Assembly: GCA_903826635.1 (NCBI GenBank)
Contig: CAIKFI010000004.1
Span: forward strand, 1 to 36,941
Direction of reading: 5' to 3'
Source: an uncultured Spartobacteria bacterium
GTDB lineage: Bacteria > Verrucomicrobiota > Verrucomicrobiia > Chthoniobacterales > UBA6821
Length of the DNA: 36,941 nt
How positions within the stretch are numbered: position 1 is the first letter of the stretch; every line of letters starts with the position of its first letter. The notes under the pieces are model-generated. The model saw nothing but the letters and a program-made list of their open reading frames with translations, searched no databases and was not told where the DNA came from. Positions 5,966 through 12,620 of the stretch are shown piece after piece. A program made the translations under genes and the position numbers.

Positions 5966-6154
5966 ATGGAAACAAACAGGTGTCCATCTCGTGCCGAAAA
6001 ATCGGCAAAACCCCAACTTGTAACAGTTTACGAGTTCATACCCAGAAACTTCCCGACCAAGATGTCCTTGGTAAAAGTTATCTGCATCGGTGTGGGAATA
6101 ACGATTGCCCAGTATGCATTTCTGGTGCTGCTGATCGCCAAGCCCTGGCACTGA
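5966..6154 (+). CDS. possible small single-pass membrane protein, 62 residues
   Basis: From ATG 5966 the frame encodes a polar N-terminal half of about 33 residues and a hydrophobic C-terminal helix (around VICIGVGITIAQYAFLVLLIA) ending in KPWH. This is the layout of a small tail-anchored or single-span membrane protein. I do not recognise the family. The reading frame is open farther upstream to 5825, but that part overlaps the divergent gene start and the palindrome, so it is unlikely to be coding. There is no clear Shine-Dalgarno sequence, and the call rests mainly on the convincing helix. Confidence 0.4.
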   Translation: METNRCPSRAEKSAKPQLVTVYEFIPRNFPTKMSLVKVICIGVGITIAQYAFLVLLIAKPWH

Positions 6155-6254
6155 ACGGAACAATCCAAGTCCCAATCTCTGGTTGTGTCTTCAGGTTGGC
6201 TAAATTGAATTGCCGAGTTGGCATCAGATGTTCTCTTGTCGCAGGATGGTGCGC

Positions 6255-6986
6255 ATGATTATCCAAATTTATGAGATTCAGGAACCGAAGGAGGCGGCCC
6301 TCATGGTCGAGTGTGGAGTCGATCACATCGGGGGTGTCATCCTATCCCCCGAAGAGTGGAGGATCCCCGCCCTGAAAGATTCGGTGAGGGTGATCCGCGA
6401 TGCCGGCCGCAAGAGCAGTATTATCCCTCTCTTTGCTGATCGGGATGCGGTTCACCGGGTAATCGATTGGTATCAACCCGATATTGTTCATTTCTGTGAG
6501 ATCATGAACATGGGTCGGGATGTGGATGAGGCGGATATGGAGGCTGATCTTCTTTTGCAGTCAGGAATCAGGGAGCGTTTTCCTCAGATTGAGATCATGC
6601 GGACCATTCCGATTGCCGAGCCCGGATTCGGAGCGGAGGTCCCGACCCTGGAACTGGCCCGACGCCTTGAGGCAGTAAGCGATTGGTTCCTGACCGACAC
6701 AATGCTTGTCGGTGCCAAACAACCTGTCGATGGTCATGTTGGAATCACCGGCAAGGTTTGCGATTGGGAGTTGGCCCGTGATCTCGTCAATCAAAGCAGC
6801 ATACCGGTGATTCTTGCAGGGGGCCTCTCCCCGGAGAATGTCGCGGAGGGCCTTCGCTTCACGAGACCTGCCGGAGCGGATACCTGCACAGCGACCAACC
6901 TGCTGGACGGAGAGGGGAAGCCGATCCGCTTCCGCAAGGATCCTAAAAAGGTCAGGCGGTTCGTGGAATCCTGCCGGGGAGTATGA
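6255..6986 (+). CDS. TrpF-like (phosphoribosylanthranilate isomerase-type) barrel protein with altered active site
   Basis: A 243-residue protein that follows the TrpF (beta/alpha)8-barrel pattern. It has a GVDHIG segment near residue 21, HVGITGKVCDW (161-171) matching the family GGTGxxFDW loop with its catalytic Asp (Asp170), and PVILAGGLSPENV (184-196), the phosphate-binding strand. The C-terminus KDPKKVRRFVE is also typical. However, the first strand reads IQIYEI where TrpF has KICG, so the catalytic cysteine is replaced by Tyr6, and the late SSGVE phosphate loop reads CTATN. It may act on another phosphorylated substrate. No other trp genes are nearby. ATG 6255 was chosen because an AGG lies nine bases upstream. 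Confidence 0.7.
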   Translation: MIIQIYEIQEPKEAALMVECGVDHIGGVILSPEEWRIPALKDSVRVIRDAGRKSSIIPLFADRDAVHRVIDWYQPDIVHFCEIMNMGRDVDEADMEADLLLQSGIRERFPQIEIMRTIPIAEPGFGAEVPTLELARRLEAVSDWFLTDTMLVGAKQPVDGHVGITGKVCDWELARDLVNQSSIPVILAGGLSPENVAEGLRFTRPAGADTCTATNLLDGEGKPIRFRKDPKKVRRFVESCRGV

Positions 6987-6991
6987 CCTGA

Positions 6992-7588
6992 TTAACCGGC
7001 GGCGGGCTGTGGGGCGGGGGAGGCGCCTCCACTTTTTCCCCTCCGACGGCGATTGGGTCGAGGGCGTTGCACCTGGGGTGCCGAAGGTTCGGTTGCGCTC
7101 ACCGCTTGGGATGGGGATTGATCCGACTGTTCGTCATGGTGCTCGTCATGATTTTGGATTGTCATGTCCGAATCCCGAGGATCCTCCCGGTAGGAGGGTG
7201 CCGACTCATCCCGGGAGTCGAGCTCTGCAACGGATTGTCGATCCTCCTCATGATGATCCTCTTTCCGTTCTTGAGGTCGGTTATCCTGTCGGTGGGGACG
7301 TTGATGACGATCGTCGCGTCGTCCCTGTTGCTGCTGATGGCGTTGTCCCTGCTGAGGCTGGACGCTTCGTTCCGACTGGGCCCGTTTGTGGAGAACTGAG
7401 GTAAGATCCTTCAGCGAGGAGACAAGGTGGACACCCAGGTCCCCCTCGGGCTCATGGGCCCGCTCGATGGATTCAGCGACCCCCTCAACCGCAGCCGTGA
7501 GGTGTTCGAGGGAGTTGTGAATCCCTTTCAAGCTGATCGAGATGGATTTTAGAAGTTCGTGAGTCGCGTCGGGATCGGAAGAGTTCAT
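6992..7588 (-). CDS. charged, mostly disordered hypothetical protein
   Basis: A 198-residue protein with two parts. Residues about 1-75 look amphipathic and helical, possibly a short coiled coil (LLKSISISLKGIHNSLEHL). The rest is low complexity, very rich in Gln, His, Arg, Asp and Glu, and ends in a basic NRRRRGK stretch with a Pro/Ala tail. It has no signal peptide. The ATG lies two bases after the stop of the DUF1365 gene (stop at 7591-7593), so it is probably translationally coupled and the last gene of the desaturase operon. The plus strand carries a hydrophobic frame over the same bases (7067-7399), which I regard as the antisense shadow. Function unknown. Confidence 0.6.
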   Translation of the reverse strand: MNSSDPDATHELLKSISISLKGIHNSLEHLTAAVEGVAESIERAHEPEGDLGVHLVSSLKDLTSVLHKRAQSERSVQPQQGQRHQQQQGRRDDRHQRPHRQDNRPQERKEDHHEEDRQSVAELDSRDESAPSYREDPRDSDMTIQNHDEHHDEQSDQSPSQAVSATEPSAPQVQRPRPNRRRRGKSGGASPAPQPAAG

Positions 7589-7590
7589 CG

Positions 7591-8439
7591 TCAAGATTGG
7601 TGATTTTTGGAATCTGTGTCCTGAGCAGAGTGGGCGCAGGAAGAGGGGTGGTTGGCGAGAGATTTATGGGGTCGATGGATCCCTTTTTGAAGTTCGGGTT
7701 CGAGTTCCTTGCGGCGTGCCTTGAGACCCTTCCTCCAGATCAAAAGGGCCTGCCAGTGAATGCCCAGGATGACTTGAAGCGTCAGGAAGGGATACTTCAG
7801 GGAAAAGTGAAGGAGGTTGCGGTCATTCAGGGGAACACGCTCACCGGTCAGCACGCTGATCAATTCACGCTCAGCGCCCCTGTAGTCATCGATGAACACC
7901 TGAAGTCTCTCTCCGGGAAGGTGAAACCGAAATTCGAATTCAAGATCGAGATCGGAGAAAGGAGAGACATAGAAATGCTTGATTACGCGGCATCGGAATG
8001 TCCCGTCCTCCTGCAAGGGCACCAAATACGGTTTCCATTCACCGAATGTGTTGCCAACCTCGGCCACTGCAATCAATGGAGAACCTTCCGTGTCGTGGCA
8101 GTAGTAAATCGAGATCGGATTGAAGAGATATCCGGCGATCCGGGGTAGTGTCAGGAGCAGAATCTTGCCTACGGGGTTCGTGATGCCGTTTTCCGCAAGA
8201 TATCGGTGGATATTCTCACGGAGGGAAGGGGCTCCATGGCTGATATGATCATCCTCATGAAAGCTGTAGAGACCGGGAGCATTGACTTTGAGAAGTCGCA
8301 ACGAGGAGGAAAGCTCCGGAAGTTCGTCAAGATCGATGAGGAAGTAAAAAACCCGGTAAAGGAATTCATGCTTCTTGGGTGCCAACCTTCGGTGGAAGAC
8401 CATGCACTCGTAGAGGCATGAGTGAAGGGGGGGTGGCAT
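7591..8439 (-). CDS. DUF1365 family protein
   Basis: A 282-residue protein with the DUF1365 hallmarks: HSCLYECMVFHRRLAPKKHEF at the start, then LIDLDEL, LPRIAGYLFNPISIYYC in the middle and VSPF plus a FHLPGE segment after it. The biochemical role is not settled. Members are usually found beside COG2907 FAD-dependent oxidoreductases and fatty-acid-modifying enzymes, and are thought to act on membrane lipids. Here it lies 75 bases after the COG2907 gene and just before the disordered protein. A hydrophobic segment (LTLQVILGIHWQALLIW, late in the protein) suggests membrane association. The ATG at 8439 gives the normal family N-terminus. Confidence 0.88.
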   Translation of the reverse strand: MPPPLHSCLYECMVFHRRLAPKKHEFLYRVFYFLIDLDELPELSSSLRLLKVNAPGLYSFHEDDHISHGAPSLRENIHRYLAENGITNPVGKILLLTLPRIAGYLFNPISIYYCHDTEGSPLIAVAEVGNTFGEWKPYLVPLQEDGTFRCRVIKHFYVSPFSDLDLEFEFRFHLPGERLQVFIDDYRGAERELISVLTGERVPLNDRNLLHFSLKYPFLTLQVILGIHWQALLIWRKGLKARRKELEPELQKGIHRPHKSLANHPSSCAHSAQDTDSKNHQS

Positions 8440-8514
8440 GGGGGGTATTTTATGAATCTGATAGCCCGACCGCTCTTTTGCATCCGTAAAAGCGGAGTTC
8501 CATCCTCATTCTTT

Positions 8515-9834
8515 TTATCCCCTTGAACCCTTTGAATTCTTTAAAAATCGGACTACTGCCTTGGAGGCTTCGAATCCTGCCATGCAGGCATCCTCATGGA
8601 ATCCATACCGGAAGTAACTTCCGCAGAAAAAAAGCCGGCCCGCGTGATTCAGTTTGGGAAGCTCCCTCTGTGCGCGGATTGCAGGCAGATCGAAGATGGG
8701 ATGATCGTAGACCGTCCTATAGAGGATGTGCGAGGGATCGATCCTGTCGTCGCTGTTTAGGGAGACAAAGTAGTCCCTCGACACGGAAACTCCTTGCAGG
8801 GCATTCATCCAGTAGTGGGTGGCTGCACGACGATGATCGTGACCTTCCTCGACCCGGAAATTCCAGGAAGCCCAGGCAAGGCGACGTCGCGGCATTACGG
8901 AGGTGTCGGTATGAAGGGAGGCCTCGTTGCACTGATAGTGAAAAACCGATAGCAATCGTTGCTGGTCTTCCGTGGGTTGCTTGAGGAGTTTGAGACTCTG
9001 ATCGGCATGAGAGGCCAGGATCACCGCATCGAATCGCTCGCACACCCCGGATGCGGTTGTCACCCAGGCTCCCTCCCCATTCTCTTCCACGGACGTGACA
9101 GGATCTCCAAGGCGTGGCTGGCCCAAAGTCTCCAGCATCTTCTGCACATAGGTGCGGGCACCCCCATCGACAGTATACCAGGGATGATGGGTACTGACTC
9201 CCAGGAACCCGTGGTTGTGGAAGAAGTGGAGCAGGGTGGAGGCGGGAAAATCCAGAATGCGTCCGGGTTCCGTCGACCAGACAGCGGAGCTCATCGGGAC
9301 AAGATAAAGATCCAGAAAATCCGCCCCGAAATGGTGCCTCTTGCAGAAGGTGGCCAGATCCTCCTGGTCAAAATTGGCGTTCTCTTGGGTGGTATCGCCC
9401 TCGGATTCCTGACGAAGCCACTTTCTTCCCACACGGAAGAACCGCATGATTTCCGCGATCAGCTTCAGGAAGCGGAGATTTCCCAAATTGCGGCGTTGTG
9501 CGAAGAGCTTGTTAAGCCCCATACCGTTATATTCCAAGCCCCTGGCCGGATGCTGCACGCTGAAGGACATCTCGCTCGGTTTGATGGAGATCCCAAGCTC
9601 ATCGAAAAGACGACAGAGATTCGGATAAGTGATTTTATTGAAAACAATGAACCCCGTATCGATGGGAACTTCCCGATCCCCCTCAAGCACGGTCACTGTG
9701 TTCGTATGCCCGCCGGGGCGCAGTGCGGACTCAAAAAGGGTGATGTTGCAACGATCGCGCAGCCCCCATGCCGAGGAGAGACCCGCGATCCCGGTGCCGA
9801 CCACGGCCACCCGGGGAGGAGTGCTAGGTTCCAT
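8515..9834 (-). CDS. FAD/NAD(P)-binding oxidoreductase, COG2907 amine-oxidase-like
   Basis: A 439-residue flavoprotein. An N-terminal dinucleotide-binding motif VVGTGIAGLSSA (Gly13, Gly15, Gly18) is followed by ESALRPGGHTNTV, the second flavin-contact region of amine-oxidase-like enzymes. IDTGFIVFN and the C-terminal FCGSYFRYGFHEDA segment are typical of COG2907 predicted NAD/FAD-binding proteins. These are repeatedly linked with DUF1365 and cyclopropane-fatty-acid synthase-like genes, so a role in modifying or desaturating membrane fatty acids is inferred. ATG 9834 lies inside the end of the desaturase gene (stop at 9824-9826), indicating coupled translation. A GGAG lies 13 bases upstream. 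Confidence 0.88.
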   Translation of the reverse strand: MEPSTPPRVAVVGTGIAGLSSAWGLRDRCNITLFESALRPGGHTNTVTVLEGDREVPIDTGFIVFNKITYPNLCRLFDELGISIKPSEMSFSVQHPARGLEYNGMGLNKLFAQRRNLGNLRFLKLIAEIMRFFRVGRKWLRQESEGDTTQENANFDQEDLATFCKRHHFGADFLDLYLVPMSSAVWSTEPGRILDFPASTLLHFFHNHGFLGVSTHHPWYTVDGGARTYVQKMLETLGQPRLGDPVTSVEENGEGAWVTTASGVCERFDAVILASHADQSLKLLKQPTEDQQRLLSVFHYQCNEASLHTDTSVMPRRRLAWASWNFRVEEGHDHRRAATHYWMNALQGVSVSRDYFVSLNSDDRIDPSHILYRTVYDHPIFDLPAIRAQRELPKLNHAGRLFFCGSYFRYGFHEDACMAGFEASKAVVRFLKNSKGSRG

Positions 9835-10765
9835 TTCTGATGGTGTTCTCCTCACGGAACGCGCTCTCGGGGATGCGTTTTAGATTGCTGATGATGCCCA
9901 GAGCGGAAAAACCCTTCAGGACGTAATAGGTTGGGTCGATCTCCCACCAGTAAAACCCCTGCCGTGCCGAGGACTGGTAACGGTGATGGTTGTTATGCCA
10001 TCCCTCTCCAAGAGTGATGATCGCCAGCAGTAAACTATTTTTACTGTCGTCACCGGTATCGTAGCGGGGTTTCCCGAAAACATGGGCCATGGAGTTGATG
10101 CAGCAGGTGCCGTGAAAAAGTAAAACCGTGCTGACGAATCCCCCCCAGATCAGCATTTGAAGCCCGGATGTGTGGAGGGAGGGCTCCAAAGCCTCAAGCA
10201 GGGCCCCCATCCCGTAGGTTAGGATGGCTAGAGCGAGGGGGCCGATCAGGTCGAACCGGTTCAGAAAAACAAGTTCGGGGAACTTGGCAAGGTCGGGAAT
10301 CAGGGAGTAATCGGTGGGGAAATTCCTGCTGCTTGTCATCCATCCGATGTGAGCCCATAGGAATCCCTTTTGCCTCGGCGAGTGGACATCGATCTCCTCG
10401 TCCGAATGGGCATGGTGATGGCGGTGCACGGCCGCCCACCAGAGGGCACCGCGCTGGACCGAGAGAAGGCCAAACAGGGCAAAAAGGAACTGGACGGTTC
10501 TGCCGGCCTTGAAGGCTTTGTGACAGAAATACCGATGGTAAATCCCCGTGACAAAAAACATCCTGACCACGTAAAGGAGGGCGCAGACGAGCAGCGCCAC
10601 CGGACTCCAACCCACCCAAAAGACCCCCAGGCATCCCAGGTGCAGGATGATGAATGGGAGCGCGCGGCTCCATTCCATCTTTTCGGGCAGGGCCCTGGTG
10701 GCCTCAACACCGCGAGGGAAGTAATCGGAATCGATGAAACGGACCATTCCTAAGAGGTTTTTCAT
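9824..10765 (-). CDS. membrane fatty acid (acyl-CoA-type, delta-9-like) desaturase
   Basis: A 313-residue integral membrane di-iron enzyme. All three histidine boxes are present: HRYFCH (77-82), HRHHH (114-118) and HNNHH (257-261). Several hydrophobic segments lie between them (around 37-75, 93-113, 172-190 and 205-222). It would introduce a double bond into fatty-acyl chains using oxygen and an electron donor; the position is inferred from the family. It is the first gene of a minus-strand cluster with the overlapping COG2907 oxidoreductase and the DUF1365 gene. The oxygen requirement suggests an aerobic or microaerobic host. Met7 (10747) is an alternative start. Confidence 0.92.
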   Translation of the reverse strand: MKNLLGMVRFIDSDYFPRGVEATRALPEKMEWSRALPFIILHLGCLGVFWVGWSPVALLVCALLYVVRMFFVTGIYHRYFCHKAFKAGRTVQFLFALFGLLSVQRGALWWAAVHRHHHAHSDEEIDVHSPRQKGFLWAHIGWMTSSRNFPTDYSLIPDLAKFPELVFLNRFDLIGPLALAILTYGMGALLEALEPSLHTSGLQMLIWGGFVSTVLLFHGTCCINSMAHVFGKPRYDTGDDSKNSLLLAIITLGEGWHNNHHRYQSSARQGFYWWEIDPTYYVLKGFSALGIISNLKRIPESAFREENTIRNGT

Positions 10766-10828
10766 GTGACACTGTTGGAGAGAATGGAGGAACGTATCGC
10801 TCTCTTACCCTTTCGTCCTGATCAGGGT

Positions 10829-11782
10829 TTATTCGTTTGAGATGCCAAACTCTCCAAGCAGGCGGTGCAGATCGTCCGAGCCGTAATATTCGATGGAGAT
10901 GTGACCTTTTTTCGGCGCATGGGTCAGGGAGACCCGGGTGGAAAAGCGATGCTGGAGTTTGTTTTCGATGTTCTTGAGGGCCGGGGGAAGCTCCTGCAAC
11001 CTGCGCCCGCGTCTGCTTTTTCCATCCCGCGGTTTGGTACCGGCAAGATGGTCCGCAACAAATTGTTCGGCTTCCCTGACGGAGGCTCCGGTGCGGATGA
11101 GCTTCTCAGCCAGAATCCGTTGCTCCGCTGGATCCTTGATTCCAAGAAGAACCTTTGCGTGACCTTTGGTGAGGCGGGACTGGATCAGGTGGGTTCTCAC
11201 CTCGGGATCCAATTCCATCAACCGCATGGCGTTGGCAACATCGGATCGGCTTTTCCCAACGCGCTTGGCGATCTCATCCTGGGTGAGGCGGAACTCCTTG
11301 GAAAGACGCTGGTAGGCTGCAGCCTCTTCAATGGGATTGAGTCCCTCCCGCTGAAGATTCTCGATCAGGGCCAATTCCAGAACCTCCTGATCGGAGGCCT
11401 TGCGCACGATGACCGGAGCCTCGGAGAGGCCGACCTCAAGAGAGGCCCTCATCCTGCGCTCACCTGCAATGAGTTCGTATTTACCTCCCGCCATCCTGAC
11501 AATCAGCGGTTGGATGATCCCCCGTTCCCTGATGGAATCGATAAGTTCGACAAGATGCTCAGCTGGAAATTCCGTTCTAGGTTGGAGGGGGCTGGGCACA
11601 ATCTGGTCGATCCTGACCATTTGGATGCGCTCACCATTCTCTTCGGAGGGGAGCGGAGCTGCTACGCGGGTGTTGATAAGGGCTCCAAGCCCCTTGCCCA
11701 GACCTTTACCAAGGCCCTTCCCGAGGTTTTTTGCCCCGGTTGCTTCTCCTCCACCCTCTTTTCCAAACTCAGACTTAGCCAT
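10829..11782 (-). CDS. parB: chromosome partitioning protein ParB
   Basis: A 317-residue ParB/Spo0J protein. It contains QPRTEF, the GERRMRA box of the CTP-binding domain (107-113), ENLQRE (141-146), and a helix-turn-helix around 166-189 for parS binding. The C-terminal segment (about 265-317) is the dimerisation region. Such proteins form CTP-dependent sliding clamps near the origin. Residues 20-36 repeat the LGKG unit three times before LGALI, expanding the usual single N-terminal ParA-contact motif. No parA lies next to it on this stretch. It diverges from the acyltransferase gene that starts at about 11907. Confidence 0.95.
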   Translation of the reverse strand: MAKSEFGKEGGGEATGAKNLGKGLGKGLGKGLGALINTRVAAPLPSEENGERIQMVRIDQIVPSPLQPRTEFPAEHLVELIDSIRERGIIQPLIVRMAGGKYELIAGERRMRASLEVGLSEAPVIVRKASDQEVLELALIENLQREGLNPIEEAAAYQRLSKEFRLTQDEIAKRVGKSRSDVANAMRLMELDPEVRTHLIQSRLTKGHAKVLLGIKDPAEQRILAEKLIRTGASVREAEQFVADHLAGTKPRDGKSRRGRRLQELPPALKNIENKLQHRFSTRVSLTHAPKKGHISIEYYGSDDLHRLLGEFGISNE

Positions 11783-11906
11783 GAGGCTAGCGTAGAGCAG
11801 TCTTCAAGAGATGGGGAAGGAAAAGGTTGTTTTGATAACCCCATATCTGTCAGAGGCAGATCTCCATGCTAGGCTAACGGGATCTCTTGCATCATTTTTA
11901 TCTCCG

Positions 11907-12620
11907 ATGACGTTCCCCATGTTTGAGCATCTTGATCTGATTCTCCCGGAGAAGGCTTTCAACGGAGCGATGCAGATGGCCCTGGACGAGGTCTTGTTGC
12001 CGCTGGTCAAGATGCCGACCTTGAGGATTTATCATTGGGAGGCTCCCTGTGTAACCTTCGGATATTTTCAAAAACATTCGGAGGTGCGCTCGCTCCATCC
12101 CGCAATGGAGGTTGTCAGGCGCTGGACGGGAGGGGGCATGGTGGTGCATGGGGAGGATCTGACCTTTTCCCTGATGGTTCCCGAGTTGCATCCCGCAGCC
12201 TCCATGAGACCCTCACTCTTTTATAAATTATTGCATGCCTCCCTTGGTGAGTGGCTGAAGAAACGGCTTCCGAAAGGGATTCGGATGGCCTGTCCCGAGG
12301 ATGTCACCAATGGACCTGCATGTTTCGCTGCACCGGCTCTGGATGATCTTCTTGTGGAAGGTCGAAAAATCCTGGGTGGTGCTCAAAGGCGCAGTCATGG
12401 GGCGTTACTCTATCAGGGGAGCTTGCAGTGCAGGGATCTCGGGACGTTTGATCCCTCGAACATGGGGGCTGCCCTCAGTGCTTCGGAGACTTTGCGTCTT
12501 TTGGATGAATACCGATGGAATAACAACGACGACAACGGTTATGACAACGATCTTCTCAAAAGTGCTGAGAGGATCGCTGAGGCCCGCTATTCCTGCCGTG
12601 AGTGGAATGAGCGCAGATAA
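11907..12620 (+). CDS. LipM/LplA-type octanoyl- or lipoyl-transferase
   Basis: A 237-residue protein of the biotin/lipoate A/B ligase fold. It shows RRWTGGGMVVHGEDLTFS (71-88), corresponding to the RRxxGGG(A/M)VxHxxxLxFS motif, and the substrate-lysine loop GRKILGGAQRR (Lys154). Cys139, in GPACFAAP, occupies the position of the acyl-accepting cysteine of LipM octanoyltransferases, so octanoyl transfer is more likely than ATP-dependent ligation. A short Asn/Asp-rich stretch (about residues 204-216) is unusual. The reading frame begins upstream at 11811, but the family N-terminus fits ATG 11907 or 11919. The start is therefore uncertain by a few residues. Confidence 0.82.
   Translation: MTFPMFEHLDLILPEKAFNGAMQMALDEVLLPLVKMPTLRIYHWEAPCVTFGYFQKHSEVRSLHPAMEVVRRWTGGGMVVHGEDLTFSLMVPELHPAASMRPSLFYKLLHASLGEWLKKRLPKGIRMACPEDVTNGPACFAAPALDDLLVEGRKILGGAQRRSHGALLYQGSLQCRDLGTFDPSNMGAALSASETLRLLDEYRWNNNDDNGYDNDLLKSAERIAEARYSCREWNERR

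Follow-up and report, generated by a model that had tools for sequence, protein, structure and literature searches.

Genes for DUF1365 proteins usually keep company with an enzyme resembling cyclopropane-fatty-acid synthase, and the question raised by the locus considered here is where that enzyme has gone. The window, by which we mean the whole stretch of 36,941 nucleotides from an uncultured Spartobacteria bacterium that was analysed, carries at one place a desaturase gene (S), a gene for an oxidoreductase dependent on flavin adenine dinucleotide (FAD; D), a DUF1365 gene (O) and a small open reading frame (dis), and it has no gene of the CMAS methyltransferase family anywhere along it. An earlier note on this DNA took the set for a methyltransferase-free variant in which the desaturase had taken the methyltransferase's place. 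We think it likely that the window instead holds one half, desaturase-UfaD-UfaO, of a furan fatty acid pathway, and that contig C119 of this bacterium's genome carries the other half: a UfaM-like methyltransferase (M), a DUF1295 gene (r) and a second, FufM-like methyltransferase (F).

The bacterial furan pathway was elucidated in two species of alphaproteobacteria, Rhodobacter sphaeroides and Rhodopseudomonas palustris, where UfaD and UfaO are described as converting methyl-branched chains of phospholipids to furan fatty acids; UfaD, an FAD protein, acts first, and the DUF1365 protein UfaO then uses O2 to turn the methylated diene into the furan (PMC7380195). The same account places furan fatty acids in plants, fish and microbes and links them to protection from membrane-damaging agents (PMC7380195). 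The Ufa and FufM genes are RSP2144, RSP1091 and RSP1090 in R. sphaeroides and RPA2569-2571 and RPA0924 in R. palustris, where RPA2571 is ufaD, RPA2570 ufaO and RPA2569 ufaM (PMC7380195); the ufaM of R. sphaeroides is reported to lie far from ufaD and ufaO (PMC12089945). This chemistry is known, and what is new here is the six-gene cassette and its division in the window's genus. Among the open-licence literature we found no paper that names a desaturase or a DUF1295 protein as part of the pathway, or that describes a desaturase-led or DUF1295-containing cluster.

Gene content of the window and of contig C119

Two of the window's genes correspond to the pathway in both family and order. O is the sole DUF1365 gene found in its genome, and 75 bases upstream of it stands an FAD gene of the UfaD kind, which belongs to PF01593, carries the GxGxxG motif and has the amine oxidase LkcE as its solved relative (COG2907 is the earlier note's label for D, no COG library having been searched). 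A Pseudomonas paper gives the homologue of RSP_1091 the name flavin-containing amine oxidase (PMC5507510), with which membership of PF01593 agrees. In relatives of the window D lies beside DUF1365 and CMAS genes in the order of ufaD-ufaO-ufaM in R. palustris. On these grounds we predict that D would desaturate the methylated chain and that O would carry out the O2-dependent furan-forming step. A sequence search gave no solved relative of O. Its AlphaFold2 model, built from 11 sequences, is a beta-barrel (predicted local distance difference test 75.8, predicted template modelling score 0.76), for which Foldseek returned no match at an E value of 0.001 or better; VIA gave Z values of 8.1 for the spirocyclase OssO, 7.9 for OlmO, 7.1-7.6 for nitrobindins and about 4.4-5.9 for fatty-acid- and bile-acid-binding proteins, values of the size that common arrangements ordinarily give and from which no mechanism follows. 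The model makes a lipid-sized barrel plausible.

The methyltransferases are found outside the window. A search of the 97.5%-complete draft genome with the PF02353 profile recovered two genes, both on C119 and with matches 1.1 kb apart, and the DUF1295 gene sits between them, as it usually sits beside F or M in the loci surveyed. The earlier note's statement that no methyltransferase is present thus holds for the window and fails for the genome, and it illustrates a trap in reading such loci: a partner gene absent from one window can occupy another locus of the same genome. Residues 43-402 of M align to E. coli Cfa (6bqc) over 360 residues. The best solved relatives of F are coclaurine N-methyltransferase (6gkv, the best) and pavine N-methyltransferase, and we take the plant protein AT4G33110 to be of the coclaurine-N-methyltransferase type. 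FufM is reported to be 26% identical to UfaM (PMC7380195) and 38% identical to AT4G33110 (PMC10940516); the likeness of F to FufM rests on its identity to M (Table 1) and its resemblance to coclaurine N-methyltransferase.

The remaining member of the window's half is the desaturase. The solved relatives of S are the acyl-CoA desaturases 4ymk (E value 3e-24) and 4zyo (E value 4e-23), and it has the three histidine boxes of membrane fatty acid desaturases, HRYFCH, HRHHH and HNNHH (pattern HxxxxH, HxxHH, HxxHH), each of whose histidines is kept by 57 or 58 of the 58 desaturase rows. A search confined to the FabA family found one such gene in the genome, within an open frame of 466 codons that points to a fusion of LpxC and FabZ, so that it is reasonable to look to a desaturase for the double bond; S likely supplies that of the substrate chain. 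A second membrane desaturase (PF00487) is encoded in the same genome (L106 6219-6863, G000:C89) and is 36% identical to S.

All four genes of the set lie at the place given in the earlier note, on the minus strand, and it was right that the first two overlap, by 32 bases with a GTG start codon for D, and that the third and fourth are 2 bases apart. The closest named relative, an uncultured Spartobacteria (Verrucomicrobiota) contig, has an identical gene order and a DUF1365 protein that is 80% identical. Nor is the arrangement a matter of chance. We fetched the DUF1365 neighbourhoods of all 33 positive genomes among 58 relatives searched, which gave 34 order-level loci; in 26 of these DUF1365 has the desaturase upstream on its own strand, and D adjoins O in 31. 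Among 52 further loci from the phylum D adjoins O in 47, and the desaturase is upstream on the same strand in 17 and anywhere in the stretch in 23 (desaturase matches below 40% identity were excluded from the locus counts). The desaturase-led form is widespread and no peculiarity of this window.

Table 1. Genes of the window and of contig C119 referred to in the text
Gene	Product	Position	Strand	Matches and properties
S	membrane fatty acid desaturase	9824..10765	minus	PF00487, 68 bits
D	FAD-dependent oxidoreductase, amine-oxidase-like/COG2907, UfaD-like	8515..9855	minus	PF01593, 83.5 bits; NAD_binding_8
O	DUF1365 protein, UfaO-like	7591..8439	minus	PF07103, 243.7 bits, E 2.6e-72
dis	small low-complexity open reading frame, conserved N-terminal part and disordered tail	6992..7588	minus	no Pfam or NCBIfam match
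parB	ParB	10829..11782	minus	ParB domains; upstream of desaturase
M	CMAS1, UfaM-like methyltransferase	C119:13564-14865		PF02353, 278.8 bits; 434 aa, Cfa-like
r	DUF1295 protein	C119, between M and F		
F	CMAS2, FufM-like second methyltransferase	C119, beyond DUF1295		346 aa, 25% identical to M

History of the cluster in the order and the phylum

Part of the evidence that the two loci belong together comes from relatives in which they are one. We refer to the window's genus as g1, to another genus of the same family as g2, and to other families of the order as f6, f7, f10 and f13. Family f10 (L088, L093, L097) has parB-S-D-O-M-r-F in a single locus, and f13 (L092, L082) has a six-gene locus, also headed by parB, with inserted genes and, in L082, an extra DUF1365 fragment; f6 (L066, L094) and g2 (L063) keep all six genes together in a locus that is not at parB. 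Of the 15 g1 genomes with DUF1365, 13 have M-r-F on a different contig from S-D-O, the latter lying together, and at parB wherever the contig allows this to be seen. Separate contigs alone are no proof of distance, and in G000, G003, G004, G012 and G014 both halves are flanked by several kilobases on each side without the other half. The same split is seen in three f7 genomes (G027, G045, G053). Synteny shows that the halves descend from one cluster, which g1 has divided in two, and to this are added matching gene trees and a near-complete co-occurrence.

The gene trees were restricted to named rows and rows from the order that exceeded a minimum length (50 of 93 CMAS1, 44 of 94 UfaD and 48 of 101 DUF1365 rows) and carry support from the Shimodaira-Hasegawa-like approximate likelihood ratio test (SH-aLRT) only. 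The 14 split-off g1 rows form one clade in the M tree, which joins f7 (97), then f10 (99), then f13 (96); in the D tree the g1 rows join f7 and f10 (96), and in the O tree they join f10 (94), with f7 and f13 unresolved. A different history is suggested for g2, where five extra CMAS copies (L224, L225, L226, L227, L228), without the residues at the Glu239 and Tyr317 positions of Cfa, group with g1 M (100), while the g2 clusters branch away from g1 in all three trees; because of this disparity, the present g2 cluster may be a later and separate arrival, the inherited M having decayed or changed function. In G010, a genome assigned to g1, the cluster (L056, G010:C56) is undivided and far more divergent; it groups with f6 in the M and D trees, and this contig is either misbinned or the result of horizontal transfer.

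Across the phylum, DUF1365 occurs in 54 of 240 sampled genomes, and a strong CMAS gene is present in all 54 (E value 4.5e-75 or better) as against 7 of the 186 genomes without DUF1365 (E value below 1e-50; Fisher p 2e-46, a figure that overstates independence since the genomes are related). Taking the 33 genomes of the order and the 52 further ones together, M lies downstream in the same orientation in 52, nearby on the other strand in 3, elsewhere in 29 and not found in 1, so that 84 of 85 genomes bear out the view that a methyltransferase of this kind is the usual companion of DUF1365. For the 52 further genomes, which belong to the 54 and had not been covered by the order-level set, the corresponding figures are 38 downstream, 3 nearby on the other strand and 11 elsewhere, and these 11 have DUF1295 beside M in 9 cases and also the desaturase in three f14 genomes. 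The gene orders met include S-D-O-M-r-F, S-r-F-D-O-M, F-D-O and S-r-M; the cluster behaves as a cassette of movable halves. The survey suggests that the pathway is common in Verrucomicrobiota, with the desaturase and the DUF1295 protein as two further candidate members.

All six genes, in the order S-D-O-M-r-F and on a single strand, are found in Lysobacter and its relatives (L040, L041, L043, L044, L045), at 35-58% identity, and on plasmid pYH12207-1 of Acinetobacter piscicola (L192), where a lipocalin gene precedes the cluster; unlike these one-piece clusters, that of the window's genome occupies two loci. Plasmids of Azospirillum (L108), Shinella (L190) and Burkholderia (L191) share the D-O-M or O-M core, accompanied by a sigma factor gene whose partner is a cupin, a ChrR-family or an anti-sigma gene, and with no desaturase annotated in the stretches shown; in Azospirillum a cupin protein and a sigma factor are followed by the FAD gene, DUF1365 and a CFA-like gene in a row, and in Shinella and Burkholderia DUF1295 directly precedes the FufM-like gene. 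Like the alphaproteobacterial system, the window's genome has an FAD oxidoreductase gene directly upstream of DUF1365 and a second, more distant FufM-like methyltransferase, and as in R. sphaeroides its CMAS methyltransferase is away from D and O. It differs from that system in having an extra desaturase and DUF1295, in its link to parB, in the separation of S-D-O from M-r-F, and in that ChrR was not found.

Proposed chemistry and its alternatives

In proposing a route, we follow the published reactions wherever a counterpart exists. S, judged by its family, would put a cis double bond into a saturated chain; M would then move a methyl group from S-adenosylmethionine to that double bond, giving a methyl-branched trans-alkene as described for R. 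sphaeroides UfaM. As in print for UfaD, D would use FAD, probably with O2 as acceptor, to add a conjugated double bond, and O, acting as UfaO does, would insert one oxygen of O2 and close the ring to a methylfuran. F, if its resemblance to FufM is a guide, may add a second methyl group to give a dimethylfuran. Applying the chemistry of UfaM, UfaD and UfaO to a delta-9 alkene leads to a prediction of our own: were S a delta-9 enzyme, the products would be 7M5 from a 16:1 chain or 7M7 from an 18:1 chain, and not the known 9M5. A broader proposal we offer tentatively, as a possibility on the doubtful side: that the six-enzyme cassette of Verrucomicrobiota, Lysobacter relatives and Acinetobacter, whole or halved, has a delta-9-type desaturase and DUF1295 as pathway parts and makes 7-series dimethylfurans with a carboxyl arm shorter than the alphaproteobacterial one. 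The link to DUF1295 may extend to algae, because in Chlamydomonas DUF1365, DUF1295 and two CFA genes are all reported to need SAK1 for induction by singlet oxygen (PMC4067076), and Arabidopsis has proteins similar to UfaO, UfaM, UfaD and FufM, some of them on lipid droplets (PMC10940516). That the genes help to make an unusual membrane fatty acid, as the earlier note supposed, is very probable.

The alternative that needs most discussion is a cyclopropane or methyl-branched end product, with D and O remodelling or repairing the chain and no furan being formed. M is of the CMAS family and aligns to Cfa along most of its length, and the answer turns in part on the bicarbonate-binding residues of Cfa, given as C139, E239, H266, I268 and Y317 (PMC3132707). 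By our reading of the alignment, in which the numbering of the 6bqc chain is shifted by one, M has A, E, Q, I and Y at these positions, so that Glu239, Ile268 and Tyr317 are kept and the set of non-plant Cfa enzymes is broken by Ala for Cys139 and Gln for His266. At the latter position 89 of 91 CMAS1-type rows have Gln (those with His, two in number, are paralogues outside the clusters), as do 11 of 11 M genes that are not adjacent to DUF1365 in genomes possessing it; the 26 other CMAS genes fetched have His in 14, Gln in 10 and Asp in 2, five of the Gln rows being the g2 copies described above. We had considered His or Gln at position 266 as a clean discriminator and dropped it, the other CMAS genes being mixed and the cotton cyclopropane synthases having Gln here as well (PMC3132707); it is retained as supporting evidence only. 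A cyclopropane product remains compatible with Gln as far as the residues go, yet the DUF1365 protein UfaO is described as forming the furan in two bacteria (PMC7380195), and we regard this alternative as unlikely.

Still less probable are two explanations that deny the connection between the loci. In one, which takes the earlier note's methyltransferase-free variant at its word, the substrate of S, D and O carries no methyl group and the genes on C119 have nothing to do with them; the g1 genome G001, in which S-D-O are present and no CMAS gene was found in the assembly, speaks for it, as does the additional desaturase on C89. Against it stand the presence of M in nearly every DUF1365 genome and on C119 of this one, an M tree that broadly matches those of D and O, the single cluster of related families, and the published experiments, in which recombinant UfaD was not observed to act on unbranched 18:1 (PMC7380195). 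We reject this variant as very improbable. The other, that M-r-F alone makes a methylated lipid and S-D-O is a remnant or has some other role, draws on G006, which retains M-r-F without DUF1365 where G001 shows the reverse, and on the g2 genomes G017 and G020, which have M-r-F and in which no DUF1365 was found. The contigs of the last two end inside M, however, and D and O are perhaps merely unassembled; with both halves kept in all but two of the g1 genomes that have DUF1365, there is little to recommend a divergence of the halves.

The reading of S-D-O and M-r-F as two halves of a furan pathway is not without difficulties, and several observations weigh against it. The likeness to UfaD, UfaO, UfaM and FufM is one of family, gene order and description, and the pairing of D with O is not universal. 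The genomes with one half only must be reckoned with, as must the position of the g2 clusters in the trees, the compatibility of Gln with cyclopropane synthesis, and the occurrence of a Gln-type M without DUF1365 in G037 and G199. In G001 the gene found after F in other genomes likewise lacks a close match, which suggests, without proof, that a contig is missing from the assembly. As for regulation, the RpoE/ChrR system regulates the R. sphaeroides genes, and ChrR (TIGR02451), the one regulator searched for, has no match in the window's genome; nor did a search of the sequences preceding parB, the desaturase and CMAS1 across the genus, made with one motif picked out by eye, show it in both halves. 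A co-regulated cfa homologue elsewhere, which the earlier note had named as fatal to its own reading, exists as a homologue, on C119, with its co-regulation lacking such signs.

Promoters, neighbouring genes and the small reading frame

A candidate shared promoter motif, seen by eye upstream of CMAS1 (TGG[CT][AG][CT], 15-19 bases, GATAA), was rejected: 7 of 14 CMAS1 regions have it, but none of the 14 parB and none of the 14 desaturase regions does, and no sigma-70-like site was found at 6000-12200 of the window. The desaturase leads D and O, as had been claimed, but it may not be the first gene of its transcript, because parB ends 63 bases upstream of it on the same strand. Gene parB is on the strand of DUF1365 in 22 of the 34 order-level loci and directly upstream of the desaturase in the genus, f7, f10 and f13, so that parB and the lipid operon perhaps form one transcript. 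It is probable that parB marks the ancestral site of the cluster, and it is probably not itself part of the pathway. Upstream of parB a CTTTTTCTTCC...CTACGCT-like block, identified by eye, recurs in most of the genus.

Following the second methyltransferase is a glycosyltransferase resembling monogalactosyldiacylglycerol (MGDG) synthase (L003 8865-9998), with similar sequence at that place in L093 (f10) and L092 (f13), which may be part of the same lipid programme. In the window a TrpF-like gene (6210-6986), above the Pfam PRAI cut-off and far below all NCBIfam isomerase cut-offs, adjoins the operon, as in many loci of the genus. The small gene dis is confined to the window's genus among the loci read. 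Fifteen loci of the genus have a contig long enough to show what comes after DUF1365, and in 14 of them, G010 being the exception, it is dis. The gap to DUF1365 ranges from -4 to 29 bases, and dis often overlaps the DUF1365 stop codon. An alignment of 15 rows from 14 genomes (L037 and L047 being one contig) shows conservation towards the N terminus, around AHEPEGDLG, followed by a disordered tail that is rich in arginine near its end.

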